DNA from: Cordylochernes scorpioides
Taxonomy: Eukaryota; Arthropoda; Arachnida; Pseudoscorpiones; Chernetidae
Assembly (NCBI GenBank): GCA_030710605.1
Contig: CP092869.1
Location: 8,343,854 to 8,407,853 of the forward strand
Direction: 5' to 3'
Length of the DNA stretch: 64,000 nucleotides
This document shows, piece by piece, positions 1,883 to 50,595 of this stretch. The stretch's first letter is position 1; each line of letters opens with the position of its first letter. The notes beneath the pieces are model-generated. The model was not told where the DNA came from and searched no databases. It saw only the letters and a program-made list of their open reading frames with translations. Position numbers and translations under genes: made by a program.

Positions 1883-2250
1883 TTATCAATATAGATTGAA
1901 ATTTTGCCGGGAGAAAATTGATCTAAAGAGACAAGGGTCACTCTCCCGTCAAAATAAACGTCTAAAACCAGATCTATTTACTGACGCCGCAACTAGCGGC
2001 CTCGGGTCGGTGACAAAGCCACAACACCAGCTTTGGCAAACTGAAAAGCGTCCACCTAGAGACCATGGTTTCGGGCTAATGGCCCTCGTCAGTCTAGGGC
2101 GGACTTTATTCCATGAGATCCACACGGGATCTAATGGAATCTTGACAATCTGCCAGAGAAGTGTTTAGCTGCCAAAGTGGCTGGGCCATATCTATGGCTA
2201 AAATATAGATGGAAATTTTGACGGGAGTAAATTGATCTATAATAAAATGC
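1883..2250 (-). mobile_element. hammerhead-bearing element H (direct-repeat flanked)
   Basis: A ~35 bp sequence (TAGATGGAAATTTTGACGGG and following bases) occurs as direct repeats at about 1893-1929 and 2208-2241. A complete hammerhead ribozyme lies between them on the minus strand (2055-2098). Relatives at 13.84, 16.74, 49.03 and 50.34 kb share the body (CGACCCGAGGC, AAAGCCACAAC, GACGTCTAAAACCAGAC). Repeat-ribozyme-body-repeat without coding sequence is the plan described for retrozymes and for the pseudo-LTRs of Penelope-like elements; assignment to either is inference. Confidence 0.75.
2055..2098 (-). ncRNA. type I hammerhead ribozyme
   Basis: Minus strand 5' to 3': stem I arm CCTAGA, core CTGACGA, stem II GGGC-CATTA-GCCC, GAA, stem III ACC-AT-GGT, scissile C, stem I arm TCTAGG. 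Stem I pairs 6 of 6, stem II 4 of 4, stem III 3 of 3. The nucleotides known to be needed (CUGANGA, GAAA, NUH) are present, and the GUC cleavage site is the preferred one. It should cut the element RNA between plus positions 2061 and 2060. A stem III this short is typical of mobile-element hammerheads. Confidence 0.9.
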
Positions 2251-7575: not shown

Positions 7576-8225
7576 CAATCTTCAAACTGCAAGGCCAAAT
7601 TTTTCCTTAGTGTAATCTCTAGAATATATAAACTTCAAGGCCAAAATTTCCTAAGTCTCTAAAGAATATTTCAAAGCAAAAATAACTTACAAACTCTTGC
7701 CTAAATCAGAAAACAGCATTAGAAAGAAAACGACCAACGCATGCGTCACTAGATGACGCGGCGAATCAGGAGAGAACCATACAAAGTGAGAATTAAGAAA
7801 AGACCATATAAAAGAACCGATTAAACCGTATTTGATAGTGATAACGATTATAAAATTTTTTCTTTTTTTTTTGGATATTTTAAATAATCAGGCAATGATT
7901 TATTTGATAACTAGTTTAATATAAAGATAAAGATTAAAAGGAGTTTGAAACAACAAGGAAATTATGTACAATGATAAAGGCAGAGTAAATGGGCCGCAAA
8001 CTGCAGATAGAAGCTCCCCCTCGTGGTACCGGCTGGAACTAACTGGCGCCGGCTGTGCAGTCTTGACATTTAACACTTTTATTATCAAAACATGAATTGA
8101 AATAAAGATAATGATAATAATAATCAAAGAATATCGAAAACATTCTAATAAACAACAGAATGATACACGCAATTCTGGCCTCAACTACCCGTTTCATGAT
8201 TTTTCAGGATGCCTGAATGACCAGT
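7576..8225. other. no recognisable gene
   Basis: Contains an imperfect local duplication (CTTCAA..AAGGCCAAATTTT at ~7575 and ~7632) and a more GC-rich patch at 7985-8070. No coding or mobile signature found. Confidence 0.5.
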
Positions 8226-8470
8226 TTTTTTTTTTTTTTTTGGTTTAGGTACAGCTTGCACCACACACACATACGCTGACGAGGGCCAAAAAGCCTAAAC
8301 GCATACTTGGTTAACTTTTCTTGATTAATCAAGAATGGGTATTTGGCTAAATATGTAATAATTAAAAACCCACGAATAGTTTATATTCATTCCGATAGAT
8401 AGCGCAAGCCATCAACAACTTTGAGTTGCAAAATCAGGAGATGCCTTTTTATTTTTTCTTAGAATGATAA
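8226..8470 (+). mobile_element. Penelope-type element P1, relic
   Basis: Has GTACAGCTTGCACCAC, the ribozyme region CGCTGACGAGGGCC, TTGATTAATCAAGAA, and the terminal block GATAGATAGCGCAAGCC with GGAGATGCC. The intact relative is at 19.35-19.70 kb on the other strand. The hammerhead is damaged: G12 is lost (CCTAAAC instead of CCCGAAAC) and stem I no longer pairs. Confidence 0.7.
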
Positions 8471-10121: not shown

Positions 10122-10486
10122 CTTCTTCTTCTTTCTTATCTCAACTCAATCATATTAGGGTTTCAAGTTGTGACCCTTGATGGTGTCTGTTTGACAACCA
10201 CTGGGTGAAGTAGAATGTGTCTGACTTTGTCATTAAGACCGGGAAAACTACTCAGTGGCAGGCCGACTTAGCTCCAAAAGAAATCGCCGCCTTTGACATG
10301 AGGAACAGACGCCATGTGCAGCTGCTCCTAACATGGAGTACAAACGCTGCTCATCCTGTATCCCTGGATTAGGAGCCCTTACAGGGTACTATCAGCCGGG
10401 CCAGCTGAACCCAGGTTTTTTAGTGAGCTTGTTACTGCTCCCCCTCCTCCTTTTTCATCCGGGCTTGGGACCGGCAAAGGCGGAGT
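10122..10486 (+). repeat. dispersed repeat J, uninterrupted copy
   Basis: Aligns with 4530-5460 minus its two SINEs and so serves as the empty-site reference. Segments: CAATCATATTAGGG, GATGGTGTCTG, GTGAAGTAGAATG, ACTACTCAGTGGCAGG, CATCCTGTATCCCTGG, GGGCCAGCTGAACCCAGG. Confidence 0.75.
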
Positions 10487-10710
10487 TAATATAAGAAATG
10501 ATCTCCATGAAAGTACAATCAAAGCACTTATATGTCTATTTTACAGCGTTTAAAATGAATTTTAATTAGAATACCTTTTAATCAATCAGTACCATTATTA
10601 AGAGATAGACCTTTAGTCCTATATACAAATTCTCTTTAGAGATAAAAGAAAATAAGTGTATAAAAAAGAGAAGGACATTACAATTTATAAAGTTCGATGG
10701 GAAATATGTA

Positions 10711-13214: not shown

Positions 13215-13490
13215 TGTGAAAAAAAATAGTACAAATGTGATATTGTACTGGGATAAGGTTCATAAATTATGAAAAAGGCATCTTCTTATCGTGCAACTGA
13301 AAGTTGCTGATGGCTTGCGCCATCTATCGGAATAAATATCAACTATTATCGTTTATTTTTTTGGTTTGGCCAATTCTGGAATAATTAAAAATCAACGAGA
13401 ATAGTTGATATTTATTCCGATAGATGGCGCAAGCCATCAGAAACTTTCAGTTGCACGATAAGGAGATACATTTTCCATAAGATATTCTAC
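13215..13490. mobile_element. P1 element, foldback form
   Basis: Starts with the P1 flank AATAGTACAAATGTGATATT, then arms GCATCTTCTTATCGTGCAAC..GATGGCTTGCGCCATCTATC and their reverse complement closing at ~13360. The central ribozyme part seen at 19.55 kb is absent. Confidence 0.8.
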
Positions 13491-13834
13491 TGTCTAGCTC
13501 TTCCGTTTGGGAGCTGTGACTCACAGCATTTTAACCTTGTTTATTTCGAGAATTCAAGGAGTTTATTCTAAGAGTTAGTAGCTATTTTATTTTAATCTTG
13601 CGTCGTTTTGTCGTGGATGCAATAAGGAATGTCTTCTTATTGAGAAGAAAATCTTGGTTTTGACACGGAAGTTAAATCTTTGAGTTAGTTACAGAAAAAT
13701 ATAATCTGCAGAATTCAATACGCTCAAGATCTCGGCGCTCTTCAGCTGGGTCATTCCTATATTACCCAGCATCCACATCAAAATGTACCCTAGAAATTAA
13801 AACTTCAGAAAGATTAGACAATTTTATTTTAGAT

Positions 13835-14060
13835 GGAAATTTTCCGGTAGTATATTTATCTATAAAAATAGAGGTCACCTCTCCCGTCAAAATCCTCACT
13901 CAAAATCACCTCTCCCATCTTTGTGAACGCTTCTCAGTTTGCAAAAGCAGGTTTTGTGGCTTTGTCATCGATCCGAGGCTGCTAGTTTGCGTGCGGCGAA
14001 AGTCAATAGTTAGCGTCTAGTTTTGACGTATATTTTGGCGGCAGAGGTGACTGTTATCTT
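13835..14060 (+). mobile_element. hammerhead element H, relic
   Basis: GATGGAAATTTTCCGGTAG, CACCTCTCCCGTCAAAAT, AACGCTTCTCAGTTTGCAAA, TGTGGCTTTGTCATCGATCC and GTCTAGTTTTGACGTATATT match the body of 1883-2250 in opposite orientation. Similarity starts just downstream of where the ribozyme would be cut; the ribozyme itself is missing. Confidence 0.65.
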
Positions 14061-14250: not shown

Positions 14251-15582
14251 CACTGGTCAACAAGATTTTTGCACAAGAGAACCTGATTATGTTTCTAGTG
14301 TAACTTTTCATGCTGAACTCAAAAATCTAATCAGAAATTTCCCATCACGTATGGTTTTTGCGTGACGGTATTTTTTTAGTATTGGGATAAATACACTAAA
14401 AATTTCAAACAATGTCACGTAACTGGTTTATCAAAAAATATTTTTCTTTGTCCACAAAGAAATAGCATCTTATCTACATGTCCTGAATCCAAATATACCA
14501 TAGGTTTTTTTCTATTACACAATATTTCTGAGATACACCTACTTGAATTTGGAAATATTGTTAATATATAGGCATATATGAACGAAACATATTTATTATT
14601 GAAAAGCAGTGACAGTGGATTTTCTTCTATACTTTCCTTGTGGTAGATCCCTCTTGAGTGCCCAGCAGTCGTCGGCAAGCATAGCGGGACTCCATTTACC
14701 TTGGTACCGCTTCTCCATGCTTGATATAGCTTGATGAAACCTCTCACCATGCTCATCGCTAACTGCGCCAAGATTGTCTGGAAAGAAATCTAGATGTGAA
14801 TGCAGGAAATGGATCTTGAGGGACATGTTACATCCCAGTGCCTTGTAGGAAAGCAACAGATCATTAACTATGTCTCGGTAATTTTCAACCTTGACACTTC
14901 CTAAGAAGTTTTTGCAAACGTTTCTAAAGGAATTCCATGCTGCTGCTTCAACTTCATTCAAACTATTTTTAAAATTTCCATCCTGCTGCAATTCTCGAAT
15001 CTGAGGTCCAACGAAAATGCTTTCTTTAATCTTCGCTTCACTTATACTAGAAAATTTTTGTTTTAGGTAGGCAAATCCACTGGCATTTCGATCCATTGCC
15101 TTGACAAAGTTCTTCATTAATCCCAGTTTAATATGTAATGGTGGTAAGTAAATATTTTCTGTATCGATCAGGGGTAGATTTGCAATATTTTTATATCCTG
15201 GAGTAAAGATTTTACGGTTTGCCAGATTTTTTTAATGTAATGCCTTTCCCTATCTCTGCTATCCCACTCACACAGAAAACAACAAAATTTTGTATATCCA
15301 AGCTGCAATCCACGCAAGAGAGCAACGACTTTCAAATCGCTGCATATTTTCCAACCGTATCTTTCATATTCTATCTTTTTCAAAAGCAGTTTCATGTTTT
15401 CGTAAGTCTCTTTCATGTTGGATGCATGTATTTATCCCAATACTAAAAAAAGATCGTCAGGCAAGAACCATGGGTGATGGGAAATTTCTGATTAGATTTT
15501 TGAGTTCAGCATGAAAAGTTACACTAGAAACACCATCAGGTTCTCTTGTGCAAAAAAAAAAGGTTTTTTTTGTAGACCTGTG
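14251..15582 (-). mobile_element. DNA transposon with ~145 bp terminal inverted repeats
   Basis: Left end CACTGGTCAACAAGATTTTT and right end (inverted) CACAGGTCTACAAAAAAA lead into arms sharing GCACAAGAGAACCTGAT, AGTGTAACTTTTCATGCTG, CTAATCAGAAATTTCCCATC and TTTTAGTATTGGGATAAATA. The inner ends are at about 14397 and 15426. TTA occurs on both outer sides and may be the target duplication. The interior is a single broken gene. I cannot assign a superfamily from the ends. Confidence 0.8.
14596..15420 (-). pseudogene. transposon-encoded protein, frameshifted
   Basis: Two overlapping-frame segments: 15416-15168 (includes G-L-Q-L-G-Y-T-K-F-C-C-F-L-C-E-W-D-S-R) and ~15200-14596 (includes A-A-A-W-N-S-F, L-H-S-H-L-D-F-F-P-D-N-L-G-A and D-E-H-G-E-R-F-H-Q). 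Only one frameshift, near 15210, separates them, and no in-frame stop is seen before 14596. I recall this protein type as a repeated, poorly characterised transposon protein in arthropods and other invertebrates. C-x2-C and a H-S-H..D-E-H cluster suggest metal binding or nuclease chemistry. The N-terminal part is missing, so this is an internally deleted, non-autonomous copy. Confidence 0.75.
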
Positions 15583-17815: not shown

Positions 17816-17864
17816 CAAAGTATTCGACAAACATAAGCAGTTTGCGCTTGTGAAAAATATTACA

Positions 17865-18045
17865 GAAGTTAAATTGTACTGGGATCAGGTTAATAAATTT
17901 AGAAAAAAAAGCATCTTCTGATCGTTGGCTAAGTCTGGAATAATTAAAAAAATCAAAGAATAATTAATATTTATTCTGATAGATGGCGCAAGCCATCAGC
18001 AACTATTAGTTGCACTATAAGGAGATACCTTTTTCTTTTTTCTTA
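17865..18045. mobile_element. P1 element relic
   Basis: AATTGTACTGGGATCAGG, CTGGAATAATTAAAAAAATC, GATAGATGGCGCAAGCCATC and GGAGATACC match 13215-13490 in order; no ribozyme. Confidence 0.65.
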
Positions 18046-19344: not shown

Positions 19345-19720
19345 GTATGAAAAAGATAGTACAAATGTGATATTGTACTGAAATAAGGTTTATAAATTTA
19401 AGAAAATAGAGGGAAAAAGGCATCTCTTTATCGGGCAAGTGAAAGTTACTGATGGCTTGCGCCATTAATAAGAATAAATATCAACTATTTAATTATTTTA
19501 ATTATTCCAGAATTGGCCAAATACCCATTCTTGATTAATCAAGAAAAGCTAACCACATACGCGTTTCGGGCTGTTGGCCCTCATCAGCGTGGTGCAAGCT
19601 GTACCTCAACAACCAAAAAAACTGGTCATTCAAGCATCCTGAAACATCATGAAACGGGCAGTTAAGGCGTGAGAACGCGAATCGATGTGAAAAAATAGTA
19701 CAAATGTGATATTGTACTTT
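19345..19720 (-). mobile_element. Penelope-type element P1 with intact hammerhead
   Basis: AATAGTACAAATGTGATATT flanks it as direct repeats at ~19352 and ~19689. From the left: GGCATCTCTTTATCGGGCAA, GATGGCTTGCGCCAT, TTGGCCAAATACCC, TTGATTAATCAAGAAAAGC, ribozyme, GGTGCAAGCTGTACC. Non-coding. Hammerheads in the terminal regions of Penelope-like retroelements are established; that this family is Penelope-derived is inference. Confidence 0.75.
19552..19593 (-). ncRNA. type I hammerhead ribozyme
   Basis: Minus strand: stem I ACCACG; CTGATGA; stem II GGGC-CAACA-GCCC; GAA; stem III AC-GC-GT; scissile A; stem I TGTGGT. Stem I gives six pairs (one G-U), stem II four. All core bases match the hammerhead consensus. 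The cut is predicted between plus positions 19558 and 19557. A two-pair stem III is the minimal form known from Penelope-like elements, which may act as a dimer. Confidence 0.92.
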
Positions 19721-19859
19721 TATTTTTTAATTAATGCGTAAAGTTTTTAGATATTTTTATATCTCTGAATATCTGAATGCAATCCTAATCGAATGTTTTT
19801 ATCTTTTTACCTACTGCAATAGTTATGTGCCTAATAAATATATATATATATATAAATAT

Positions 19860-20215
19860 GTAGTAATGTAGTTGTTGTATCTTGTTGGATGACTGTAGTG
19901 TGGCATGTTGGTTGCAGTCGTGGTGGCCACAATGTTTAGAGTGGTTTCAGGCGTGATTGGGATTACACAAAAGGACGAGGCATGTTGGATGGCACCATAG
20001 AGATGGCGAGAGAGCCAGTGTAGCCGACGCCAGTCAGGGGAGAACTGTCTAGAGGGGTCTGTCCATCATTGTGTCTCAAAGCCGACTAATCTGTTTGCGT
20101 AAGAAAGGGCACACTTAGGAACCCGACTTGTTTTTCGGACCTCTTTCCTCCTTCTGGCGTCGACTGTCACTCACTCGAAATTTTATTTGTCACTTTGGCA
20201 ATTACATTATAACTA
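19860..20215. other. GC-richer unassigned block, possible solo LTR
   Basis: More balanced composition than its flanks (TGGTGGCCACAATG, GTGTAGCCGACGCCAGTCAG, GACTTGTTTTTCGGACC) with TGTAGTTG near the start and AACTACAACA at the end, which could be TG..CA LTR edges. No second copy in the window and no clear target duplication. Confidence 0.25.
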
Positions 20216-20478
20216 CAACACATGGAGACATAGATATATTGGAATATATTACAGCATATATATAGTTCAAAGATACATATATATTTCAATTTTTTATTAG
20301 GATGCTTATAAAATTCCTTTTTTATAATTAGAAATGTATAAAAGCTTCTTTATAATGTTATTTTAAAATAGGAGATTCCAGAAATAGTAATAGAAATGTA
20401 AAAAAAAAAAATTGAGATTTTTTGTTGCCCTTATTACAATGTGATATTTACACTACACTATGTGTTTTCTATTTATAC

Positions 20479-20870
20479 AGGGTGATCCAAAAGTCCCGCA
20501 CAACTTTAAAAATTAATAACTCCGCGAATATTTGCGCTAGAGCAATGCGGTAAACACCATTGTGTTCAGGATGCAATGGGATTTTTTTATGGCAAATAAT
20601 GAAAAATTCGAAATTGATTTTAGTTACAACTTTATTCGCCAGATGGCGCTCTACCAGAATCAGAGATTCAGCGGCCAAATTGTTTGATAAATTGAAAAAT
20701 ATAACTGATCGACACGTATTTTTCTTTTTTGAATACCAGGAAAGAACCCTAATAATATCAAATAACAAATTAATAAAACACCACTTCGCCAAAAGTATGA
20801 AGAATTGGTTAACGATTTTCAAATACAATCAGAGATATGTAAAATAGGTAAATGCAAATTAAAACATGTA
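20479..20870 (+). mobile_element. repeat K with mariner-type terminus, copy 1
   Basis: Terminus ACAGGGTGATCCAAAAGTCC resembles mariner-like ends. ~395 bp is shared with the inverted copy at 31600-32000 (CCAGATGGCGCTCTACCAG, TGATCGACACGTATTTTTC, CAGGAAAGAACCCTAATAAT). Open frames occur on both strands but are not protein-like. It could be one end of the element whose transposase fragment lies at 21.6-22.1 kb. Confidence 0.6.
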
Positions 20871-21590
20871 GCAAAAATATTTATATTTTATATGGAGTTT
20901 TGTGAAATAGATTGAATGTTTGAAAAACACTGCTGATATCAATACACGAATTTTTGAAATGTTAATATAGTACCAAAAATTATGATGGCACTTCTAATAG
21001 GATTTCTTGCTATAAGAAATGTGTAGTTTCTTGACTGATTGGCGACACTTGACTATTTAACTGGATATTTGTCATGATCCAACAAATGAAATATAGAGGG
21101 AAGTGACAAAATATATTTGTCGTACTTTATTCCAAATATCCTATGGGCTTGTCAAATGTTATCATTGTTTATTATACTTTACACAATTTAAAAAAATGTG
21201 TCCCCTCAAATAAAAATAATTTTTAAATCGACCTTTTGCGTTGAAAAACGTGGTAGTAAAATCATTTTGTATTATTTTTTTCACAAAATTTCTAAAGTTA
21301 TTGGTGTACAGAAAATATTCCTTATGCTATTTCTTCTAATGAGCGAAAAGCGAAAACTAAACATAAGGGGAAAAATTGTGTGTACCAGTGTTATTCGAGA
21401 AGTTATAACACTCTGGTTTGCACGACATAATATGTGAGCAAATGACAAACAAAATATTACTGTTCACAAAAAGAAGAGTCAAGATGTGAGGACAGCATTT
21501 ATTATCCCCATATCCCAACACAAAGAGCTGCAAAATATTGATAGATAATATAATACATGGCGGCTTATATAACACATGAGGTAACTGCCT
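20871..21590. other. AT-rich spacer, no recognisable gene
   Basis: Lies between the mariner-type terminus and the transposase fragment; may be decayed transposon interior. No supported coding. Confidence 0.4.
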
Positions 21591-21606
21591 TCTCTCTTGT
21601 ATTAGG

Positions 21607-22095
21607 TCACAATCCTTGCTCAATGTGGCACCCTTCATTCTCAATCACCGCCTGCAGACGATAAATGACAGAATGGACAGCATTGAATAACATATCTGTT
21701 GAAATTGATAAAACGTGCCATCTTATAGAAGCCTTCAACATGGCCAATGTGGTAGGCCAGCATCGATAAACACACGATTTAATGTACCCCCATAAACTAA
21801 AATCGCAAGGCGTCAAGTCTGGTGATCTTGGAGGCCACTGGTATATAAAGTGGCGACTTATCACACGATTTTCACCGAACGTATCCTTCAGCAATTGTTT
21901 GGCACCTCGGGAGATATGAGGAGGTCCTCCATCTTTCATGAATGCTATTTCGCTTAGTGCTTTTGCCCTGCAATATGGGAAATACCTTTTCTCTCAAAAG
22001 TTGAACATAACGTTCATCAGTTACAAAAACGGTTTTAAAAGTTCTTCCATTGATTTTTCAAAGAAAAATGGCCCAATAATAAAAGAATGAACCCA
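21607..22095 (-). pseudogene. mariner/Tc1-type transposase, C-terminal part
   Basis: 21939-21607 is open with D-G-G-P-P-H (from the usual Q-D-G-A-P-P-H) and W-P-P-R-S-P-D-L-T-P-C-D-F-S-L-W-G, the second and third catalytic-Asp blocks of DDE transposases of the IS630-Tc1-mariner group. Upstream to ~22095, in shifted frames, F-F-F-E-K-S-type and D-E-R-Y-V-Q-L-L residues continue the domain. The first catalytic block and the DNA-binding domain are absent. It joins LINE endonuclease sequence at ~22100. Confidence 0.85.
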
Positions 22096-24535
22096 CATAC
22101 TCGGCGAATTTAACGCCAAAAGTTCAATTTGGGGATCACCTGTCCAGGATAACAAAAGTCAGCAGGTTGAGGACATGCTAACCGACCTTACACCGTTAAA
22201 TAACGGAGAGAACACCTACCTATCTAAGTCCACAGGCACAGAATCCGCAATAGACATCATAGCGATAAATTACAACATCGCACCCACAACACAATGGAAA
22301 ATCCTGAGAGGTGCAATCAGTGACCACAGAAATTGAGAATGTCCATTAGAATTAAAGAACATGGAACTTTAGGAAAGCCGACTTGAAAAAAATTCACAGA
22401 AAAGCTTGAAGAACTGTGCAACGAAAAATTGAATTACAGAACGCTTGACAAAAACTTGGAAAAATTCTCTTCGAACATTTCAAAGCTGCAAAAGCATCGA
22501 TACCTAGAAGTAGACGTATAGACCTGTGGATACCTTACTGGAAGGACCACAACATCGGGGCAATGATTTCAGAGAGAGAGACAATATCAATGAACTTCTT
22601 TAAAAAATAAATCATAAGAAAACAGAAAGGAACTCATTGAAATTAGTCACAAAATAGAACAAGAAATTTGGATATGCAAACAAGATAAATGGCAGAATTC
22701 TGCGAAAAAATGGATCCAAGAAAGGACAGCCAACACTGGAATATGATTAGAGTGTTAGAGAACAATCAAAACCAACACCAATCCTCCAATACTCTAACCG
22801 ATATGAATAGAACAGCGAGAACGAGAACAAACAGATGGCTGACATAATTGCTGAATATCTTTCAAGCACTTCCATACTCAACTATACGAATGAAGACAGG
22901 ACTCTAAAAATAATATAAACCAGTTAGTTAAACAAGCAAGAAACTTCCATCAACAAGATATTTTATCGAGAGACTTCACACTGAATGAGCTAAACTTATC
23001 AATAAAAAAATCCAAGAGGTCACCAAGAGATAATCTAATCTTTGGTCAAATGATTAAACACTTTGAAGACAAAGCTAATAAACAACTCCTACGAATACTG
23101 AACATTTCATGGCAAACTGGTAAACTACCAAAGAATTGGAGGATATCAATTATAGTGCCAATACTGAAGCCAAACAAAGATGCCAAGGAATACAAGAACT
23201 ATCGGCCAATTGCTCTGACCAGCATACTTTGTAAAATACCAGAACGAATTATCCACTCTAGGCTCATAGTCTGACTCACTTACTATAATAAAATAAACCT
23301 CTACCAAACTGCCTATAGATCCCAGCACTGTACGACTGATCAACTGTTCTACTTCTGTCAATCAATAATAGATTCTTTCCAGGAAAAACCGCCAAAGAAG
23401 ACAACGGCCGTATTCCTGGATATGACCTCAGCTTTTGATCGAGTGTGGAGGGAGAAATTAAGTGAAAAGCTGCACAACATCGGAGTAAGAGGAAAAACCT
23501 TAATATGGATTGCAGACTTCTTAAGGGTAAAGAAGGTTAAAGGTTCGGGTCAATGGAGAATTTTCCAAGGAAGGAAGAACATGGACTGGTGTAACTCAGG
23601 GATCTGTGCTCAGTCATCTACTCTATCTGCTATATATTAACGACATCCATCCTTACCTCACTGAAGACACAAAGGTTGCCTGTTATGCAGATGATATAGC
23701 CATATGGCACACAAGTAGCAGCATAGAAAAATCGTAAAAAATACTGAACACATCAATGAGAGGACTGGAGAAGTGGGCAATGGAACTCCAAATGACCATA
23801 AACCCAATAAAACCAAACCTATGCGTCTTCTCCACTCACAGGGGAAAAGGCATAAATATAACCACAAAATAAGCATAAACAAACAAATAATTGATAAAAT
23901 TAGAAATCCATAATACCTAGGTGTGATACTGCAGTCCTGGATCTTTCAAGTTGGTCTTGAGGACCACGCCATCACCATCTCCTAAGCGGCGAAGTACGCT
24001 ATCTACGTATTCATCGTAGATCGCAAAATGCGTGGTGACGCTGGAGACACACTGGCGATTCTCCACCAAATTCTTCAGCGCTGGCAGAGGCGCCATATTC
24101 ATTGTACATAGTGTATATAATGCATATTATCTTTTTTTTTAATAGTGCAGACTGTGCATGTATTGACAAGATGTCAACAAAATTATTTTAATTATTATTG
24201 ATGAGGAATTGGAATTTTCAGAACACATAATTAGCACCTCAAATAGAGATATCAGAAAACTAAACATTCTGAGAAGGCTATGTGGAACAAATTGGGGAGC
24301 AAAACCCAGAATTCTCAGAACAACATATACCACCTTAATAAGGCCGATAATGGAATATGCAACACCGGTCTGGGCTCCCTCAAGCTCATCACTAAAAGTA
24401 AGCCTAGACAGTGTTCAAGCAAAAGCGGCCAAAATAATCACTGGTGCTGTTTCATCCACCAACAATGAGAAAATTCAGTGAGAATGTGTTCTAGACCTAC
24501 TCGCTCGAAAGCACAAGACAAAATAAAAACAACTT
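22095..24535 (+). pseudogene. I-like non-LTR retrotransposon: endonuclease and RT
   Basis: In order: endonuclease end (F-N-A-K-S-S-I-W-G-S-P at ~22105, S-A-I-D-I-I and I-S-D-H-R-N at ~22250-22335); decayed linker 22340-23040; RT from 23050 (W-R-I-S-I-I-V-P-I-L-K-P, Y-R-P-I-A-L-T-S, A-F-D-R-V-W-R); Y-A-D-D-I-A-I-W at ~23685; post-RT region from 24200 (L-C-G-T-N-W-G-A, R-P-I-M-E-Y). Several frameshifts and stops; not functional. A LINE fragment at 23932-24198 splits the post-RT region. RNase H and knuckle may continue at 30.65 kb beyond two later insertions. Confidence 0.85.
23932..24198 (+). mobile_element. LINE 3' fragment inserted in the I-like RT
   Basis: The host frame reads Y-L-G-V-I-L before and D-E-E-L-E-F-S-E-H-I after. 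The insert encodes W-I-F-Q-V-G-L-E-D-H-A-I-T-I-S and A-A-K-Y-A-I-Y-V-F, as at 2.96 kb and related to the family 5 C-terminus, then a non-coding tail with AGATGTCAACAAAATT. Confidence 0.8.
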
Positions 24536-26900
24536 GGATCGGCACTTCGGAAACGAGCAACCAGAGGACGAGATCTCTCTGACCACTTGTGGTTTGGTAG
24601 ATCCGCCCTTTTCTGAGAATGAGGTGAAACTGACGGCTTTCAAGTTCGGGAAAAGGAAATCTCTTGGTCCCGAAGGGATCGATAACACGGTCGTGAAAAC
24701 CCTGGTAAGGATGCACCCATCGCTTCTTTCCAGGTTATTCAATAGGTGCCTGGACACTGGTACATTTCCTGAGGCATGGAAGGTTGCCCGAGTAGTACTT
24801 CTCGAAAGGTCTGGTAGAAAGGGTAATTCTCCTAATGATTATCGTCCGCTTTCTTTACTAGTGTGTCTAGGTATGGTCCTGGATAGCCTACTAGCTCAGC
24901 GACTGAAGCATTGGCTAGAGAGTAATGAACTCCTTTCCTCTTTCCAACATGGTTTTAGGGAAGGGAAGTCCACAACCACAGCTCTGAACGAGGTGTTAGA
25001 GGGGGTTGAGATGGGCTTAAATAAGGGTTCTTGGGTTCTTGCCCTGGAATATTGATGGCGCGTTCAACTCCATGAACTGGAACAAGCTGACGAGAAATTT
25101 GATGGACATGGGTTGTCCTGATAATTTGTGCAGCTTGGTTCGTGACTTCCTGAGGGATAGACGGATTAGCCTCAGTTTTGGTGGGCGGAAGTTGGAAAGA
25201 AACTGTGCTAGGGGTTGCCCCCAGGGCTCTTGCTGCGGACCTATTCTGTGGAATATCCTGGTAAACACCGTTTTCCAGGAGGAGCTCCCTGAGGGAGCCA
25301 GGCTGGTTCTCTATGCTGACGACCAGTTCCTCATCATTGAGGCTGCTTCGAGAGCGAAGGCTGAGAAGTGTGTTGAAACTTCTCTCCAAATTCTCTCGAT
25401 CTGGGCCCATGACTCTGGCCTTAAGTTCAATGTCTCCAAAACTAAAGCCCTCAGCTTTAAGCCCAGGGACATAAGACCTAAAAGGAAAGGGATCAAATGG
25501 CAACACAAGCCGGCTATCCGGATGGAAGGACGGAGGGTAGCGTTGGTCAATAGGATGACCATCCTGGGGGTGGTCATTGATGACAAGATGGGTTGGCAAT
25601 ACTAGGCGGAGGAGATGGTGGCGAGAGGCAGGGAGGCGTTGTGCAGGCCTGTCCTGGTTGGCTCTCAACAGGGGGGGGGGGGGGAGAAGGAGGGTACTAT
25701 TTTTAGGAACCTCTGCCTCTCCTGTGTCGAGCCAATCTCGACGCCGGTGACGCCGAAACAGGGATCAGAAGGTGGCAACAACTCTTGAGAGAGTGCAGAG
25801 GACAGCGACACTCAGAATCACAGGGGGATATCGCACTACCAGCAGTGAGGCCTTATTGGTCCTCGCTAGGCTTGAAACTGGGATTGAAACTAGAGGAGGA
25901 GACCATCAGACAGAAGATCTGGAAAAACAGGGAAGATGCCCTGGGACTTGAAGCGGGGGCCCTGGAATCGAAGAGGGATCCAAGGAAGCCTCCGCAGTGG
26001 TTGCCAAAGTGGAATTGGAGTCCTGGAGGGCCGACAGGGATTGGCACGGAGGTTTTCACTGATTGTAGTAAGTCTGGAACCAATACTGGAGCTGGGGTAG
26101 TGATATTCACTAATGGAGAGCTGATCTTCCAAGAAATTTTAACACTCAGAGTGGACGAATTGGTCTTTTCAGCCGAGCTGGTTACGATCAGGGTAGCCCT
26201 CAGAGTGTGTGCCGAGAAGAACTTCAGCCCGGACCGCCTCTATTCAGATTGTATGTCGGCCCTCGTCGCCATCAATCTGGAGAAAGGGCAACTCGCGCAT
26301 CAAATAATCCAGGAGCTGGAGATGATGACGCGGGCTCCGGAGCTCCCTTGGTTTAGGAGACACAGCCTAATCGAAGGTAATGAGTTCGCAGACAGGATCG
26401 CTAAGGCAGGATACTTTAGAGGTAGATCACTGAGGACCCCAGTGACCAAGAAAGAAGTTTATAGGAGGATCAGGGGGCACGTCCAGGACTTATGGTTGGA
26501 CAGATGGAGGAACAGTGTAAAGGGGAGAGAGGTATTCAATGGGGTAACAACACCCAAGTACCTCTGTAAGGTAATGTCCCACAAACTCATTAGGGTAGTT
26601 CGGAACATGGGCTCTTCCCCAAGTCTCCACAGATTTTAAATTAAGAGAAACCCTGATTGCGTCTATGGAGAAAGGGATGTGAATGCACGCCACTACATCT
26701 TGGATTGTCCAAGGGTAGTGGGTGTGCAGGAAGTGAGAAGGAGGGCGAGGGGCGCGATCGAGAGTAAGCTGCTGAGAAATCACAGCAAACTTCTTGAGAA
26801 AGCCCACGACGTGGCAGCTGAGCTTTTCCTCAGCTGTGAGTGAACAGAGTCCACCGGTGGCCGCCTCCCCGCGGTCCCTGCTGGACACAGTAGATAGTTT
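24535..26900 (+). pseudogene. R1-like non-LTR retrotransposon: RT, RNase H, zinc knuckle
   Basis: 5'-truncated. RT from ~24600: S-L-G-P-E-G-I-D, N-D-Y-R-P-L-S-L-L, G-C-P-Q-G-S, V-L-Y-A-D-D-Q-F-L-I. A frameshift at ~25050 and a TAG at ~25604 interrupt it. RNase H in 25785-26639: F-T-D-C-S-K-S-G, F-S-A-E-L, Y-S-D-C-M-S-A-L, G-N-E-F-A-D. Terminal knuckle at ~26645-26720 (N-P-D-C..A-R-H-Y-I-L-D-C-P), stop at ~26844. Domain order and motifs fit the I/R1 group. More GC-rich than its neighbours. G9-13 at ~25672 marks a slippage-prone site. Confidence 0.9.
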
Positions 26901-29900
26901 CCTATTTTGCTGTTACTAAAGGCCACCGGTATAGAAATCCTTCCAGACACGTTGTCTGGGAGGTGGTGTTTCCAGGTACAATGTCCAAGCACTAGCTTGG
27001 ATACCGTTACTTGGCTTATGAGTTGAACAGAATAGCAGCGAAGGGCATGCTTCGCATGCCGGCTTGTGGACCGAAAGGTCTGGGTGGCCATCTGCTTCTA
27101 GGGTATACCAACTGTGCTTAGGTGGGATCCTCCAGTTCTTGTTTATTTTGGCTACTGTTTCTATTTCTTTAAAATTAAGTTTATTTTTCTGTAGCAAGGG
27201 TTCTTTTGTGCCTTTTTTCTCTAGCGCATCAGCAGCTTCATTGCCTTCAATGCTAACATGTAAGGGTATCCATTGAAGGTGAATTTTTGAGGTATTGAGA
27301 GTTTTTGGAGATAACCAATTATGTTGCTGCTTACTTTGTCTCTAAGTTCCCCTGTGTGACTCAAGTGTTGTATGGCACTTCTACTATCAGTAAGAATCCA
27401 TATATCGTGATGTTTAATGTTTCTGATGGATTTTAAGACTTCATAGATGGCTATAAGTTCTGATCTGAAAACTGAGCAAAATTCTGGATTTCTTCTGTTT
27501 ATTTTCTCATTGCCATTTATGGTTTTAATGAGAGAGCCACTGCCAGTGTGTCCCAACTCGTCTCTGCTACCATCGGTATAGATAGTTATTGCATTTTTAG
27601 GAATTTTATATTAATTATTTCTAATGATAATTGTTTTAAGTATTCTGGATTTTGGTATTGTCTGTTGGTGGGTTCATTTAAAGTGGCATTAAAAATAACA
27701 TTTTGTTAGTGGTTCGCATGGAGATATTTTTTCAGCTAAATAATATTTTTCCACTTTATATTTTAAAAATCCATTTCTTTTGGCCAGGTGGAGAGGGCCT
27801 TCTTTTTTTAGTCTTATATTGGGTCCCCAATTAAGTATGTAATTGAAAGGTCTGTGTTTGTTTTCATAACTCTTGATTTTGTTTATATATTTTGGCAGAT
27901 TGTAGCTTATTCTATCCTTCAAGGGCATAATGTCTGCCTCGTAAAGTACAATATTATTAGGGCAGGTTTTTCGAAGACTTGCAATAATTCTAGCTGCATT
28001 TAGTTGTATCCTTTCCAGTGTTTTTAGATTTGTTTCAGATGCTGTACCATAGATTTGATATCCATATTCCAAGATAGGTCTCATTAGAGATGTGTAATTT
28101 AATTTTAGTATTGTTGCTTCAGCTCCCCACTCTTCCTGAAATATATTTCAAGATTTTTAGTCGGTCTCTTCTTTTTCTAACAACTCCTTCAATATGCTTA
28201 CTGGAGTTAATTTCTGGATCCAGGGTGTAGCCGAGATATTTAGGATGTTTATTATATTGCAATTGTTGTTCTTTCATAATAATATTTGGTCTTATTTTGT
28301 ATAGTTTCTTATCGGTAGTAAAAAGACAGATTTCAGATTTTTGGGGGTTAAATTCTAATTTATGTTTATTAGCAATTTTTTCTAGGTGGAGAAGAGTCTT
28401 GTTCAAATCTCTTTCAGCTTTTTTCCAGTTAGTGTTGCTGCTCCATAGAATAATGTCATCAGCGAAAAGTCCAATATTGGTTTTATGTGAAATTTTTTTC
28501 TTCTATGCCTGCAATAAATAGGGTGAAGAGAGTTGGGCTAAGGATTGATCCTTGTGGTAATCCTTGGTACAATTTGAAGGTTTTAGATAGAGTGCCATTA
28601 TATTTGACCCTGATGTATCTATTTTTAAGGAAATCATTTATCCAAGTGATAGCTTTTCCATCAATTTTGAAATGTTTGTATAATTTTGTAATTAACTTGT
28701 TTTTCCATACCTTATCAAAAGCTTGTGTAAGGTCTAAAAAGCAGCTATGGTGTGGTTAGTAGGTTTTTTGTTTTGTGCATCTTTTACCTTTTGTGTGAAA
28801 AATAAGAGTTGGTCTATTGTCCCATGTCCTTTCCTAAATCCATATTGTTCTTCTGGTAAGAGATTTCTTGTGTCAGGGTGGTAGGTGAGTCGTCTGAGTA
28901 TAATTTTTTCCATTAATTTGCAGCAAATATTTGTTAGGGAGATAGGTCGGTATTTTTTTGGGTCATCAGCAGATTTGTCAAGTTTTTTAATGGGAATTAT
29001 TGTTGCATTTTTACAGTCTTGAGGCAATTTTCCAGTTTTCCAGGAGTTATTGAAAATATTAAGAAGTCTTTCTTTGCCAATTTTGCCCAAGTTTGATATC
29101 ATTCGGCCATGGATTCCATCTGGCCCAGGAGTCTTGTTTAGGTCAGTGTTTTCTAATGCATAAGCTAGCTCTTTCATATTGATTTTTTTCATGGAAAATA
29201 TTATGACAACAACAACAACAACAAAAACCTTTATTAAGACACTATTGTCTTACAAGGGGATTCCCCTAAAAAGTTATATATGTACATGAGTGAGGAGGAA
29301 AAGCAATTTAGAGGGGAGGGGGAGCAATCAGCCGTTGTCTGTGGGGTTGAGCACTTCTTCTCTCATTTTATCAATCGCCTTGTAATATTTAAAAAAGTTA
29401 TAAACAAATGTGTCATCCAGCAGGAGAGTAGTGAAGATTTTATATACATGTTGTTCATTGTAGTGAGTTGGCCCCGAAATTTCGCGAATTTCCAGTCTCT
29501 TTTCATGTAGGAATTGGCAATGGAATAGATAGTGGACCAAATTGTTTTGGATGTCAACATTGCAGAAGTAGCAATTTAAAGGGTCGCTGCTCCAAAATCC
29601 CGTGATATCCTCGCGGAAAAGTAGCCATAGAGGAAAATATTATGAGTGCTGGTGTCATTTTTACAGTCATGAATAATCTTTCGGACCTTTTTCAACCTTG
29701 ATTTTACTACTTATTTGATATGAATTACCTAAAAGATTGGCAGCAATTTTGTCATTAGTTGCTGGTGTACCATCTGTATTCTTTATCATATTTGTGTTTT
29801 CAGTTTGTGGCTGGCCTCTGTCAATTTGTTTTTCCAAATGCCAAAGTTTTGTATTTGGGTTTCTTGGGTTCAGGTTTTCACAAGTTTGTTTCCATTTTTA

Positions 29901-30640
29901 CCTTTTCACATTTACGTATAATCTTTTTATTTTTGCAATCACAATGTTCAGTTCAGTTCTACAATTTGTTTGGTTTTGGGTGCACTTTTTGTAGTTCATT
30001 TCTTTTAGTTATAAGTGTTTGAATATTTTTTGCCTGGTGTGTATAATTTGGAATCCATTTCTTAATATTACCTCTTGGTATTGAAACTTTGGCTGCTTTA
30101 ATAATGGTGTTTTCGAAAGATATCATATTAGCCTTTTTGAAGTTCCAGAATTTTTCTTAATTGAGCTAGTTTTGGTCTTGGTGCTAATTTTTTTTATCAA
30201 ATTAGGCAAATGATCACTTCCAAAACTTTTTAATATTTGCTATTTGCATTTGTGGAAAATGCCAGGATAGTAAAAACGTATATCAAGGGCTTGTGCAGTA
30301 TTATAGCTTGTAGGGATGATGGGTAGGATTCCCATCATTTAAGCACATGAAGGCATTGTCGTCAAATATGTTTGATAGTATTTTGCCTCTTGGGTTTGGC
30401 GTAGAACATCCCCATATTTTATGTTTGGCATTAAGGTCACCTACAATAATAGTATTGTCTGCAAGAAATTGAGCCATTGTTCCATCGTCAATAAATGTAT
30501 TGTTTGGAGGGTGATACATATTGTATATGTTGATGGCTTTGTTTTGATTGAGGTAGACTTTGATACCTTGGGCTTCGAGGTCTAATGTGTTTGTAATATT
30601 AACGGCTATGTCCTCATAGTACAAATTCTTGATTAAAAAT
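26900..30640 (-). pseudogene. I-like non-LTR retrotransposon, minus strand, nearly full ORF2
   Basis: Read right to left: endonuclease ~30640-30300 (V-G-D-L-N-A-K-H-K-I-W-G), linker ~29960-29700 (N-L-N-P-R-N-P-N-T-K-L-W), RT 29192-28440 (P-G-P-D-G-I-H-G-R, Y-R-P-I-S-L-T-N, Y-G-F-R-K-G, F-A-D-D-I-I-L-W), post-RT 28406-27689 (K-Y-L-G-Y-T-L, R-P-I-L-E-Y), RNase H 27556-27220 (W-I-L-T-D-S-R-S-A, N-E-A-A-D). Several frameshifts. Carries a 425 bp insertion at 29207-29631. 5' truncated inside the endonuclease. Confidence 0.88.
29207..29631 (-). mobile_element. non-LTR family 3, 425 bp, 14 bp target duplication
   Basis: GGAAAATATTATGA flanks it exactly (29193-29206 and 29632-29645), and the host reading frame continues across the empty site. 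It encodes H-Y-L-F-H-C-Q-F-L-H-E-K-R (half knuckle), and ends GGGGAATCCCCTTGTAAGAC, AATAAAGG and (GTT)n. A second 425 bp copy at 46938-47362 is truncated at almost the same point. Confidence 0.9.
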
Positions 30641-30644
30641 TCTA

Positions 30645-31460
30645 GGCCACGCCCTTTAACAGCATATACAGATGGATCTTCAGACCTTATCCTGAGTAAT
30701 GGAGGGGCCGGAATTAACATAATACTGCAAGATGGAACAAACATCAAAATCAAAGAAGGAGCAGGACAGATTTCGTCAAACTTCACTTGTGAACTGACAG
30801 CTATCTGGAAAGCCCTTAATGTATGCCTTAACCAACCATCCCTGCATCAAGCAGAAGGAATTTTAATATACAGCGACTCCATATCCGCTCTAGAAGCAAT
30901 TCAGAAGGGCAATACTAAAATCACACAGAAAATGCACTCGTTACTTACCCAACTCGAACCATTGGAGAATAACTGCATTCTACATTGAATCCCTGCCCAT
31001 GCTGGGATCGGGGGTAATGAAATGGCATTTGAATTGGCAAAGGAAGCCAGAAAGTTGAGCCAAAGGAAAGAACAAATGTCATTATTTGACGCTGATTCTT
31101 TGTCAAAATACAAGATAATTAAACAAAAAAATAAGAAAAGATCAAAATGCGAAATAAACTCTGAGAGAAAAATGACAAAAACTATAACAAGACTTAGAAC
31201 AAAACACTATAAAGGAATGACAATACATCCAGATGGCACAAGAACCTATAGCGCATGCAACAATTGTCCTGGTGTGGAACTTACACCTACCCACATATTC
31301 TCATAGCCAGCAATGGCCGCAGCCTTGCAGAAATTTGACATAGACCCTGAGCAGCAGCTTTACACACCCAAGATAGTGGACATTGCTGCTGCTGTGATGG
31401 AGATGCATGGATATATCTGAGGCTTTTTATTGGACACGACAACAACAACGGCATTCCAGA
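30645..31460 (+). pseudogene. non-LTR family 1: RNase H, knuckle and 3' end
   Basis: RNase H: Y-T-D-G-S-S-D, F-T-C-E-L-T-A-I, I-Y-S-D-S-I-S-A-L, then G-N-E-M-A-F-E-L-A-K, where the usual fourth Asp (A-D) is Phe. A TGA at ~30987 replaces a Trp. Knuckle C-N-N-C..T-H-I-F then a TAG in place of the last Cys. The C-terminus D-I-A-A-A-V-M-E-M-H-G-Y-I, TGA and a CAACAACAAC tail match the unit of the 1-770 array. It may be the displaced 3' half of the element at 22.1-24.5 kb. Confidence 0.85.
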
Positions 31461-31599
31461 GTAAAATAAATTATCAGAGATAGATACATATTTTTCAAAT
31501 GAATTAAAATAAATATAATCGATGCTGAGTGAGAGTTGAATTAAAAATATTAGAAATTTATTATCTTCGGAAACAAACCGTATCTAAAATATCAATTTT

Positions 31600-32000
31600 C
31601 TTTTTGCTACGTGTTTTAATTTGCATTTACCTATTTTACATATCTCTGATTGTATTTGAAAATCGTTAACCAATTATTCATACTTTTGGCGAAGTGGTGT
31701 TTTATTAATTTGTTATTTGATATTATTAGGGTTCTTTCCTGGTATTCAAAAAGGAAAAATACGTGTCGATCAGTTATATTTTTCAATTTATCAAACAATT
31801 TGGCCGCTGAATCTCTGATTCTGGTAGAGCGCCATCTGGCGAATAAAGTTGTAACTAAAATCAATTTCGATTTTTTCATTATTTGCCATAAAAAATCCCA
31901 TTGCATCCTGAACACAAAGGTGTTTACCGCATTGCTCTAGCGCAAATATTCGCGGAGTTATTAATTTTTAAAGTTGTGCGGGACTTTTGGATCACCCTGT
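31600..32000 (-). mobile_element. repeat K with mariner-type terminus, copy 2 (inverted)
   Basis: Near-identical reverse complement of 20479-20870, ending AAGTTGTGCGGGACTTTTGG and ATCACCCTGTA. High identity implies recent movement or gene conversion. Confidence 0.65.
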
Positions 32001-32129
32001 ATATAGATAAATATTTTGGCCCAATAAGTTTCTTTTAATATTTTCTATCATAATAAAACCTTATTGAGAAAGAATTCAACTTTATACATAATATTTATTT
32101 CAATTTCTTTATTTTCAAAATCTATATTT

Positions 32130-32505
32130 ATTAAAAATAAAAAGGCATATCCATGACCAGGAGCACATGTGCTTTTCAGAAGGCAGAACGCCATCTGGTG
32201 GAACAGAAATAAACTAATCATTGATTTAACCTGTTCCCTGATATTTGGCCAACCCAATTTCTTGATAAATAAAGAAAAGCCATCCACGAACGTGTTTCGC
32301 GCTGTTGGCGCTCGTCAGCGTGGAGTAAACTGTACCACTGCGACCAAAAAGATTTTGGTCTTGATTTATCAAGAAATTGGGTTGGCCAAATATCAGGGAA
32401 CAGGTTAAATCAATGAATAGTTGATTTCTGTTCCATCAGATGGCGCTCTGCCTTCTGAAAAGCACATGTGCTCCTGGTCAATATATGCCTTTTTTATTTT
32501 TAATA
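32130..32505 (-). mobile_element. Penelope-type foldback element P1b with intact hammerhead
   Basis: Nearly palindromic to its edges: TTAAAAATAAAAAGGCATAT, CCAGGAGCACATGTGC, CAGAAGGCAGAACGCCATC, GAACAGAAAT, TTGGCCAACCCAATTTCTTG are repeated in reverse complement on the right. The ribozyme sits in the loop. It ends in the CAGATGGCGCTCTGCC motif shared with other families here. Related to P1 but diverged. Confidence 0.8.
32283..32324 (-). ncRNA. type I hammerhead ribozyme (covarying sister)
   Basis: Minus strand: stem I TCCACG; CTGACGA; stem II GCGC-CAACA-GCGC; GAA; stem III AC-AC-GT; scissile T; stem I CGTGGA. Relative to 19552-19593, stem II swaps a G-C pair to C-G, and stem I swaps A-U to U-A and G-U to G-C, so pairing is kept by double changes. 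U at the cleavage position is allowed but usually slower than C. Confidence 0.92.
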
Positions 32506-32589
32506 TCAACACCTGACCTTTTTTATTTTTTCTATTGTTTTTTATCTATATTTATATATCACGCGACACAGGGGAATGGATTACACCAT

Positions 32590-33782: not shown

Positions 33783-34080
33783 CTTATCCCTAGTACACGT
33801 GGTACAGGCCATGATAATTATGGTGGATAGAAGTAGGCGACGGCTTTTACTGTAAGTACACCACATGTCTACACATATGAAAATCAGTTCGACTTTGCAT
33901 TTACAAATATGCCAGAGCCCCGTTTGGTTACTTGCACTCGCTGATGGGGTTGGACTTTTACAAGAATCGGAGGCCATTTAGCATTTTTTTAAATAAGATA
34001 AAAGTGCCCAATGCGGGAATCGAACCCGGGTCGTAGCGGTCGAAAACCAACGGTTTAGACCATCCTTCCACCGACCCCCT
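33783..34080 (-). mobile_element. SINE-1, near full length
   Basis: Minus strand: GGTCGGTGGAAGGATGGTCT, AACCGTTGGTTTTCGACCGC, CGGGTTCGATTCCCGC, body, and 3' ACGTGTACTAGGGATAAG. The best reference copy for the ~300 bp unit. Box A- and B-like Pol III promoter is in the head. Confidence 0.88.
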
Positions 34081-44530: not shown

Positions 44531-44559
44531 TCATTTAAATGTTGAGATGATACTCATTT

Positions 44560-45045
44560 ATAAATTTAATTGCCATCTATCGTTAATCTTTTACACAAAT
44601 AAATTTACTGGCAATGCGTTTCTTTTAAATATCATCAAATATTATCTCTACAGACCTTACTGCAATGATATGAGTTATTGAATGAGAGGGCTTGGCTCAT
44701 CAGTAGTTAACCCTCTCAGCGGTTTCGCCAAATTAATCTCTAGACCGCTCTATTATTGTATTGGAATGGTTTGGAATATTACCTGTATTTTCTATGGAGG
44801 GCAGATTAGGTTACTAAACACCCCTAAGCTGTCTTCCATAGAAAATACAGGGTATATTCCAAACCAATCCAATACAATAGTAGAGCGGTCTAGAGATTAA
44901 TTTGCCGAAACCGCTGAGAGGGTTCACTACTGATGAGCCAAGCCCTCTCATTCAATAACTCATATAATTGCAGTAAGGTCTGTAGAGATAATATTTGATG
45001 ATATTTAAAAGAAACGCATTGCCAGTAAATTTATTTGTGTAAAGG
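44560..45045. mobile_element. palindromic element family A, long foldback
   Basis: ~485 bp. Tail TTGCCATCTATCGTTAA, arms from ACACAAATAAATTTACTGGC through GACCTTACTGCAATGATATG, GAGAGGGCTTGGCTCATCAG, CTCTAGACCGCTCTATTATT to ACCTGTATTTTCTATGGAGG; the right half is the reverse complement, meeting near 44815. It could form a hairpin of well over 200 bp. Non-coding. Confidence 0.9.
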
Positions 45046-45139
45046 ATTATACATATAGAGACTTATCGTATATCTATAAAGTATAGAAAGACAAAACGAG
45101 CCATTATAAGCTACAAGTACATGTAGAACGACGCTATAG

Positions 45140-47804: not shown

Positions 47805-47960
47805 TTATTGTTAATCCAATACAATGGTAGAGCGGTCTAGAGATTAATTTGGCGATACCGCTGAGAGGGTTCACTACTGATAAGCCAAGCCCTCTCATTC
47901 AATAACTTATATCATTGCAGTAAGGTCTGTAGAAATAATATTTGAAGATAATCATTTATT
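47805..47960. repeat. palindromic element family A, right half
   Basis: CCAATACAATGGTAGAGCGG, TTTGGCGATACCGCTGAGAG, CCAAGCCCTCTCATTCAATA, GCAGTAAGGTCTGTAG. Confidence 0.75.
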
Positions 47961-50330: not shown

Positions 50331-50334
50331 TTTT

Positions 50335-50595
50335 ATAGATGGAAATTTTGCCGGGAGGAAATTGATCTAAAGAGACATGGGTCGCCTCTCCCGTCAAAAT
50401 AGACGTCTAAAACCAGACGCCATCTATTAACCGTCGCTGGTCTCTAGGTGGACGCTTTTCAGTTTGTCAAAGCTGGTGTTGTGGCTTTGTCACCGACCCG
50501 AGGCCGCTAGTTGTGGCGACGGTCAATAAATGGCGTCTGGTTTTAGACGTCTATTTTGACGGGAGAGGCTACCCTTGTCTATTTAGGTATATTTT
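50335..50595 (+). mobile_element. hammerhead element H, foldback without ribozyme
   Basis: Arms CTCTCCCGTCAAAATAGACG, TCTAAAACCAGACGCCATCT and reverse complement. The inner body starts TGGTCTCTAGGTGG, i.e. within about five bases of the predicted cut site in the 2055-2098 ribozyme, and runs through CTTTGTCACCGACCCGAGGC. Confidence 0.8.

Follow-up and report, generated by a model that had tools for sequence, protein, structure and literature searches.

Hammerhead ribozyme elements of Cordylochernes scorpioides with an insertion anatomy that suggests a Penelope-type signature

The question raised by this locus is what two diverged elements carrying hammerhead ribozymes are, and how such elements came to be inserted in the genome of the pseudoscorpion Cordylochernes scorpioides. 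The locus lies in a stretch of 64,000 nucleotides (assembly GCA_030710605.1, contig CP092869.1, positions 8,343,854 to 8,407,853 of the forward strand), which as a whole is called the window here and to which coordinates refer unless another locus is named. A preliminary description had placed hammerheads in elements at 19552 and 32283 and linked them by compensatory base-pair changes; it was right on the ribozymes and on compensatory change, and missed a shared system with a common insertion signature. Hammerheads, tandem units, arms arranged head to head, target site duplications and paired fixed ends are present in the sequence, and a like pattern is present in the genome's own Penelope. 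The larger result suggested by these findings is that the elements bear the insertion signature of Penelope, and they are probably small retroelements, akin to metazoan retrozymes, whose insertion relies on machinery of the Penelope type.

Hammerheads of three element families

The strict scanner for type I hammerheads required CUGANGA, a paired stem II, GAA, a closed stem III (A15.1-U16.1), H17 and a stem I of at least 4 bp. Both hammerheads of the preliminary description were recovered with the full core at exactly the coordinates given there, and a third was found in the window:

19552–19593, minus strand: type I hammerhead of family A, with stem I of 6 bp, stem II of 4 bp and stem III of 2 bp (strict scanner)
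32283–32324, minus strand: type I hammerhead of family B (strict scanner)
2055–2098, minus strand: type I hammerhead of family C, the third in the window (strict scanner and core-pattern search)

The first two run in the order stem I, CUGANGA, stem II (4 bp, loop CAACA), GAA, stem III, H17 and stem I, and their stem III pairs A15.1-C15.2 with G16.2-U16.1 around a loop of two bases. The family C hammerhead reads CCTAGA-CTGACGA-GGGC-CATTA-GCCC-GAA-ACCATGGT-C-TCTAGG. The strict scanner gave no match in 60 Markov-shuffled windows and none in a 2-Mb shuffled sample, and the core pattern with up to two mismatches matched four times in the window against 0.01 expected. The elements at 19552 and 32283 are homologous, about 74% alike across 153 bp, and not unrelated. 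A 200-kb sample of the genome (2.62 Gb in 24 contigs), taken as 20 pieces of 10 kb each from round-number positions along contigs 1–9, held four intact type I hammerheads by the strict scanner, which extrapolates to about 52,000 genome-wide (95% Poisson interval 14,000–134,000).

The stem I and stem II sequences claimed for the two hammerheads were confirmed as stated. Pairing is indeed kept at the three stem pairs reported to differ; the change is double-sided in only two of them, the outer pair of stem I (A-U to U-A) and the second pair of stem II (G-C to C-G), and the third, the inner pair of stem I (G-U to G-C), is one-sided. The covariation test that had been proposed was made on 17 hammerheads of families A, B and C, picked by hand for diversity, and the shuffles used for comparison ignore relatedness. 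Here 93.6% of stem cells were paired and five of 12 pairs had changes on both sides; the covariation score was 0.229 as compared with 0.091 ± 0.016 in shuffles. Furthermore, in 52 segments of family A (at least 80% identity and at least 40 nt, the young arrays L041–L045 left out; L numbers denote fetched loci) the catalytic core was changed at 8 of 433 sites and the remaining unit at 701 of 13765 (Fisher p 0.001), four of the core changes being at the any-base position and four at G12. Position 17 was C in 67, A in six and T in five of 78 family A and B copies, many of them from arrays, and was never G. The stem covariation, the core being less changed than the unit and the absence of G at position 17 support the earlier proposal of selection for RNA catalysis. 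Such selection would act in the amplifying lineages, and neither cleavage by nor present selection on either window copy is implied.

A covariance-model score above the Rfam cut-off, another of the checks proposed, was not reached, although the preliminary description had named the lack of a significant score as a refutation. HH9 gave 23.3 bits for 32283 and 19.6 bits for 19552 (19.6–26.5 overall) against a gathering score of 52, and the family C hammerhead had no Rfam match. The Hammerhead_1 model found nothing genome-wide and likewise nothing in its 14 control genomes, which makes that search uninformative. The failure was weighed lightly because no Rfam model is close, and the scores are probably low because stem III has only 2 bp. 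The name type I hammerhead was given because of the conserved core and the pairing (three stems, stem I open), and not from Rfam.

Anatomy of the insertions

Family A was searched with a DNA query that gave 106 matches from the best 40 scored of 7075 loose candidates, and was found as dispersed copies and as tandem arrays with a unit spacing of 336–339 nt. Its unit is 338 nt long with 41% G+C, and the longest open reading frame (ORF) starting with ATG, checked in a tetramer, has 44 amino acids; the family C unit has 314 nt and a longest ORF of 30 amino acids. With no long ORF, the units of both families are without a reverse transcriptase or GIY-YIG endonuclease ORF. Tandem copies of family B or C were not seen in the fetched sequence. 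Two outer 3' end sites recur in family A, e1 at about unit position 188 (..CCTTTTTCTTAA) and e2 at about 238 (..TACTATTTTTTCACA), so named in the following list of window copies:

19348–19718, minus strand: one-armed family A element of 1.09 repeat units (338 nt each), whose 3' end is at e2 (unit 236)
8166–8453, plus strand: decayed copy of family A, hammerhead core at 8276–8300 (plus) damaged, 9-nt word common to the flanks
13221–13480, no single strand: two-armed insertion of family A that lacks a hammerhead, ending at e2 on the left and at e1 on the right
17849–18037, no single strand: two-armed insertion of family A that lacks a hammerhead, ending at e2 on the left and at e1 on the right
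32132–32543, no single strand: family B insertion, arms head to head around the hammerhead, 3' tail at about 32506–32543 on the right side only
32120–32131, plus strand: left copy of the 12-bp target site duplication ATCTATATTTAT, flanking the family B insertion
32544–32555, plus strand: right copy of ATCTATATTTAT (12 bp), flanking the family B insertion
1888–2239, minus strand: family C element, 1.12 units of the 314-nt repeat with 38-nt terminal direct repeats, carrying the hammerhead at 2055–2098
13830–14059, no single strand: two-armed insertion of family C that lacks a hammerhead, flanks with a 10-nt word in common
50334–50594, no single strand: two-armed insertion of family C that lacks a hammerhead, flanks with a 10-nt word in common

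Family A arrays and short copies have the same layout, with the minus arm on the left, the plus arm on the right, one strand switch and the 3' ends outward. Among joins of up to 45 nt, 23 were minus-plus (one being a family B element) and one was plus-minus; this exception, L053, is made up of two adjacent insertions that have separate duplications, AATTATACTTAT and TTATATAGCCATTGT. Arm length goes from some tens of bases to about 14.8 units (L043), with 11 units in L041. Where both ends of a two-armed match lay inside the sequence fetched, they were scored in windows of unit positions 170–200 (e1) and 226–246 (e2). One e1 and one e2 were present in 17 of 20 matches; the remaining three are a family B element and two cases, L013 535–691 and L043, that are e1/e2 by eye. 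All 19 assessable two-armed family A insertions have one e1 end and one e2 end, and the second outer end lies about 25–50 nt beyond the first fixed site. These 19 comprise 11 best matches to the window copy, six from the 200-kb sample (L004, L005 twice, L011, L013 twice) and two from the window. The mirror-image loci L044 and L045, which may be one duplicated insertion, both stand outside the 19.

Target site duplications were assessed in 34 one- or two-armed insertions of family A whose boundaries were placed by hand, and 200 re-pairings of left and right flanks served as control. A common word of at least 8 nt was found in the flanks of 25 of the 34, as compared with 2.7 of 34 on average, and never more than 7, in the re-pairings; the longest common word averaged 9.8 as against 5.3. 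The flanks are 73% A+T, compared with 65% in the window.

The family B query gave 85 matches from the best 40 scored of 5401 candidates. A tail (TCAACACCTGACC...) was on exactly one side in all five copies with both ends seen, on the right in the window copy, L006, L009 and L091 and on the left in L092; this count leaves out the partial copies L007, L012, L015 and L060. The duplication is clear in one family B copy, that of the window (12 bp). By eye, one family B arm in L091 appears to start just past the cut site. Among the five two-armed family C matches, three have the tail on exactly one side, with one end near 170–184 and the other near 207–210.

Close copies of A (95%) and B (96%) also lie within 2 kb of each other at G000 C7:8464267-8466156, about 90–100 kb from the window copies and with B in the opposite orientation; the pair is probably a rearranged local duplication. 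An inverted repeat of about 412 bp, 97–99% complementary (20466–20877 and 31601–32011), spans the 11.5 kb between the two hammerhead elements.

Penelope of the same genome and the copying of the units

A damaged Penelope was present in L020 of the random sample, with a GIY-YIG match (E 9e-4, 19.9 bits) under the Pfam cut-off of 22.6. The search with the L020 protein scored the best 147 of 56,683 candidates; the scored copies, the query itself aside, were 96–98% identical and had open frames of up to 794 amino acids. Opposite-strand Penelope neighbours within 10 kb were divergent by eye in 27 of 27 cases among the matches listed. In 10 insertions chosen from these 27 pairs, for which the two ends and not the middles were fetched, a tail of 31–32 nt (GTTGCACACCGGAAGAGTTT... 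and variants) was on exactly one side in all 10, five on the left and five on the right. Within the window, a Pfam scan of seven of the 13 listed ORFs returned LINE-like (long interspersed nuclear element) and integrase domains and no Penelope. As separate observations, a Penelope copy adjoins a family A piece in L084, and inverted repeats of 130 bp (94%) bracket a 211-amino-acid ORF with no Pfam match at 14266–15556.

This anatomy has a counterpart in the literature, where statements here refer to the available parts of the texts cited. The Penelope-like elements of PMC3846280 and PMC11167929 share with ours the head-to-head inverted copies, the tandem copies, the AT-rich targets, duplications of 8–10 bp and a tail of 30–40 bp at one inverted end, the tail of rotifer Penelope being at one of the inverted ends (PMC3846280). 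The purified Anolis Penelope-like protein cuts and extends both strands in vitro, starting at two adjacent internal sites such that the tail is the stretch between them, and the tail is termed unique to Penelope-like elements (PMC11167929). The difference is that family A and C units are without a reverse transcriptase or endonuclease ORF and that their sequences are unlike the sampled Penelope.

The likely template was approached from the 5' ends of the segments. Only one of 67 segment starts lay within 4 nt of the hammerhead cut, as compared with about 1.8 expected, and that one is a family B copy; the 67 include a few family B matches and one artificial split. There is no pile-up of 5' ends at the cut site, and therefore a linear, once-cut monomer would not usually serve as template, which leaves circles or uncut multimers as candidates. 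The many-unit arms of L043 and L041 and the strong folding of the circular units also favour such a template, and the variants among units within arrays would fit either a single circle or later homogenisation. The circular family A unit has a predicted fold of −111.7 kcal/mol, as compared with −69.6 ± 5.0 when shuffled (z −8.35), and family C gives z −6.2; in the predicted family A fold hammerhead stems I and II form and some core bases are paired too. Arms within one insertion were more alike than arms across insertions in 10 of the 13 (out of 18) with enough overlap (means 0.945 and 0.908), and the L053 arms have eight common variants against one difference.

We infer that the units are copied from circles by Penelope-type enzymes, which is well supported by the anatomy. 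In the proposed mechanism the element would be transcribed, the hammerhead would cut the transcript into units and a host ligase would close these into circles. A Penelope-type enzyme would nick both strands of AT-rich DNA about 8–15 bp apart, and each nicked end would prime copying of the RNA, one from the internal site e1 and the other from e2, about 25–50 nt downstream. Each copy would proceed 5'-ward, sometimes for many rounds, and the two complementary DNAs would be joined head to head. A broader proposal, whose chances we consider evenly balanced, is that animal retrozymes, including the type-SGC element described below, parasitise Penelope: the enzyme would have two subunits, one per start site, giving exactly one tail per two-armed insertion, and the hammerhead would make the RNA circle that is read from both nicked strands.

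Several observations weigh against the reading as hammerhead retroelements inserted by Penelope-type machinery. One-armed copies are common; 20 one-armed matches (the split piece of L043 left out) end 13 times at e2, three times at e1 and four times at neither, where two of the four are family B copies; the query used has its own end at e2. The 19552 element is one-armed and shows no clear target duplication, the longest flank word being 4 nt. The 5' ends cluster at family A unit positions 176–187, just upstream of e1 (11 of 67 against 2.4 expected), perhaps from a block by a second bound enzyme. The 40 scored family B copies have a similar centre, although the ranking favours such copies, and this could mean that B was copied as a fixed palindrome. 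Two of the five two-armed family C matches (L002 and L012 4811–5334) are without the end pair, and the Rfam scores stand under the family cut-offs. The sampled Penelope differs in its end and tail sequences, with only a TTCTTAA-like end similar to the hammerhead families, and no cognate Penelope was found for these families. In the available text of PMC11167929, moreover, the start site is the same on both strands and hammerhead mutants left in vitro insertion unaffected.

The units could alternatively be pseudo-LTR (long terminal repeat) pieces, or solo ends, of full Penelope elements with the same non-coding region, and not separate retrozymes. Penelope-like elements carry hammerheads there and follow the same tail logic (PMC11167929, PMC3846280), and tail-bearing ends and head-to-head order are common to the units and Penelope; the arrays at 336–339 nt spacing with no ATG ORF above 44 amino acids, and the sampled Penelope ends that are other than those of family A, make this explanation unlikely, although no search was made for a Penelope joined to family A units. 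Insertion by LINE-type retrotransposons, through L1-like twin priming or by local LINEs, appears quite improbable to us. Twin priming also inverts part of a copy, LINE-type endonuclease and reverse transcriptase matches are present in the window and the duplications would fit. Under twin priming, however, one of the outer ends falls at an internal point that varies, whereas here each outer end is at one of two fixed sites and a single arm can carry many units. Palindromic DNA transposons, either miniature inverted-repeat transposable elements (MITEs) or foldback elements with incidental hammerhead sequences, were considered as well, as the inverted arms resemble terminal inverted repeats and the scored family B copies are near-constant in length. 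Long inverted arms as MITE termini were rejected on the variable inner junctions, the tail on one side only and family A arms that vary between some tens of bases and about 15 units, and with flank words of varying length this origin is highly improbable. That the hammerheads are relics or chance matches with no catalytic role, as the weak Rfam scores and some decayed copies might indicate, can hardly be credited given zero chance matches in shuffles, the conserved core with its pairing changes, and intact cores in young, near-identical arrays. The likeliest reading is that of retrozyme-like elements inserted by Penelope-type machinery.

A type-SGC family, and the place of the elements among known systems

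A second kind of hammerhead was found in the window. A 48-nt motif occurs 21 times in the fetched loci searched, and together with an upstream AGCGGU-(C/A)-U(A/G)G it makes a hammerhead ordered as cleavage block, GAAA block and CUGAnGA block, with a fourth helix, GAGAGGG/CCCTCTC, besides stems I–III. Readings of the repeated GAAAC...CUGAUGA motif as pseudoknot or as type II hammerhead were rejected on the misfit of stem I; the type-SGC order fits. The window holds the following:

44684–44749, minus strand: type-SGC hammerhead (non-circularly permuted), with pairing in all four helices
44884–44949, plus strand: type-SGC hammerhead, one stem II mismatch
44545–45049 (approximate), no single strand: two-armed element with both type-SGC hammerheads, tail on the left only, no clear duplication
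47831–47896, plus strand: type-SGC copy with core mutations GATA and CTGATAA (pattern match)

The pattern used, which fixes part of the upstream block, found 20 copies, and 16 of these have CUGAnGA, GAAA and H17 intact, position 17 being C in 16 and A in four. In 13 aligned copies, from few independent lineages, 96.3% of stem cells were paired. Four pairs changed on both sides with a covariation score of 0.201 against 0.135 in shuffles, but two other covariation measures were equalled or exceeded by 85 and 488 of 500 shuffles. No Rfam family matched these hammerheads in the window at E up to 1 or in L089 at E up to 0.1. The element query scored the best 40 of 1380 candidates; the scored copies were mostly 97–99% identical to the window copy, with units 378 bp apart. 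Opposite-strand neighbours among the matches listed were divergent by eye in eight of eight cases, and the tail was one-sided in all five insertions of which both ends were seen, namely four in the window and, by eye, L090. Not counted for the tail are L086–L088, in which one end lies beyond the sequence fetched, and the copies of a diverged subfamily such as those in L009 and L014.

In the available text of PMC10085705 the type-SGC hammerhead has the same block order (cleavage site, GAAA, CUGAnGA) with the conserved core bases, and the same helices I, II and III, together with an additional helix that links stems I and II at their other sides. Those sequences came from metatranscriptomes, metagenomes and RefSeq, whereas here a tandem 378-bp element lies in a chromosome-scale animal genome. 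The main text of that paper, in the parts available, mentions neither animals, insects nor retrozymes, and it was the only paper found to combine type-SGC with hammerhead in the open-licence literature, as far as its texts could be consulted.

Other ribozyme-like and RNA-like matches were noted in passing. Minimal hammerhead-like cores such as CTGACGAAGACAAAAGATTTTTGTCGAAACGTCGAG are present in the window at 48164 (plus) and 14207 (minus), and in L007 (611, 4193), L013 (242) and L014 (3786, 7063); they resemble those reported in Penelope-like elements, and at least two copies are in head-to-head settings. A Type-P1 twister match lies at 10438–10492 (minus) with 50.6 bits against a cut-off of 67.2, and twisters are mentioned at the 5' end of RTE retrotransposons in the available text of PMC7761336. 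Short matches to the transfer-messenger RNA model at 34012–34051 (minus) and in L019 at 2041–2080 (minus), of 19.5 and 24.6 bits and below the cut-off, are probably due to chance or derived from repeats.

The type I families are like the metazoan non-LTR retrozymes of PMC7229834 (available text) in having a type I hammerhead in a 170–400 nt unit without a long ORF (families A and C), tandem copies (family A), G+C below 50%, duplications of more than 4 bp and a predicted circular fold that is self-paired; they differ in that divergent arms, two fixed ends and a one-sided tail are resolved here. In the parts of that paper available, Penelope-like elements are proposed as a strong helper candidate without such insertion anatomy, and as copiers of animal retrozymes they are named only as candidates (PMC7229834, PMC11722881); the available text of PMC7761336 states that retrozyme repeats have no conserved motif that would help to deduce the helper. 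An earlier report of a Penelope-type footprint in retrozymes was not found in the open-licence literature, within the texts available. The insertion anatomy is the new part, retrozyme-like units with type I hammerheads having already been described in metazoans.

Which enzyme returns animal retrozymes to DNA is an open question, and an insertion footprint linked to a Penelope enzyme by biochemical work makes it testable in any sequenced animal. The pattern of one tail per insertion constrains how the enzyme acts, with two strands, two start sites and one of each. A high-copy, recently spread type-SGC element, in addition, would bring that permutation of the hammerhead to animal chromosomes.

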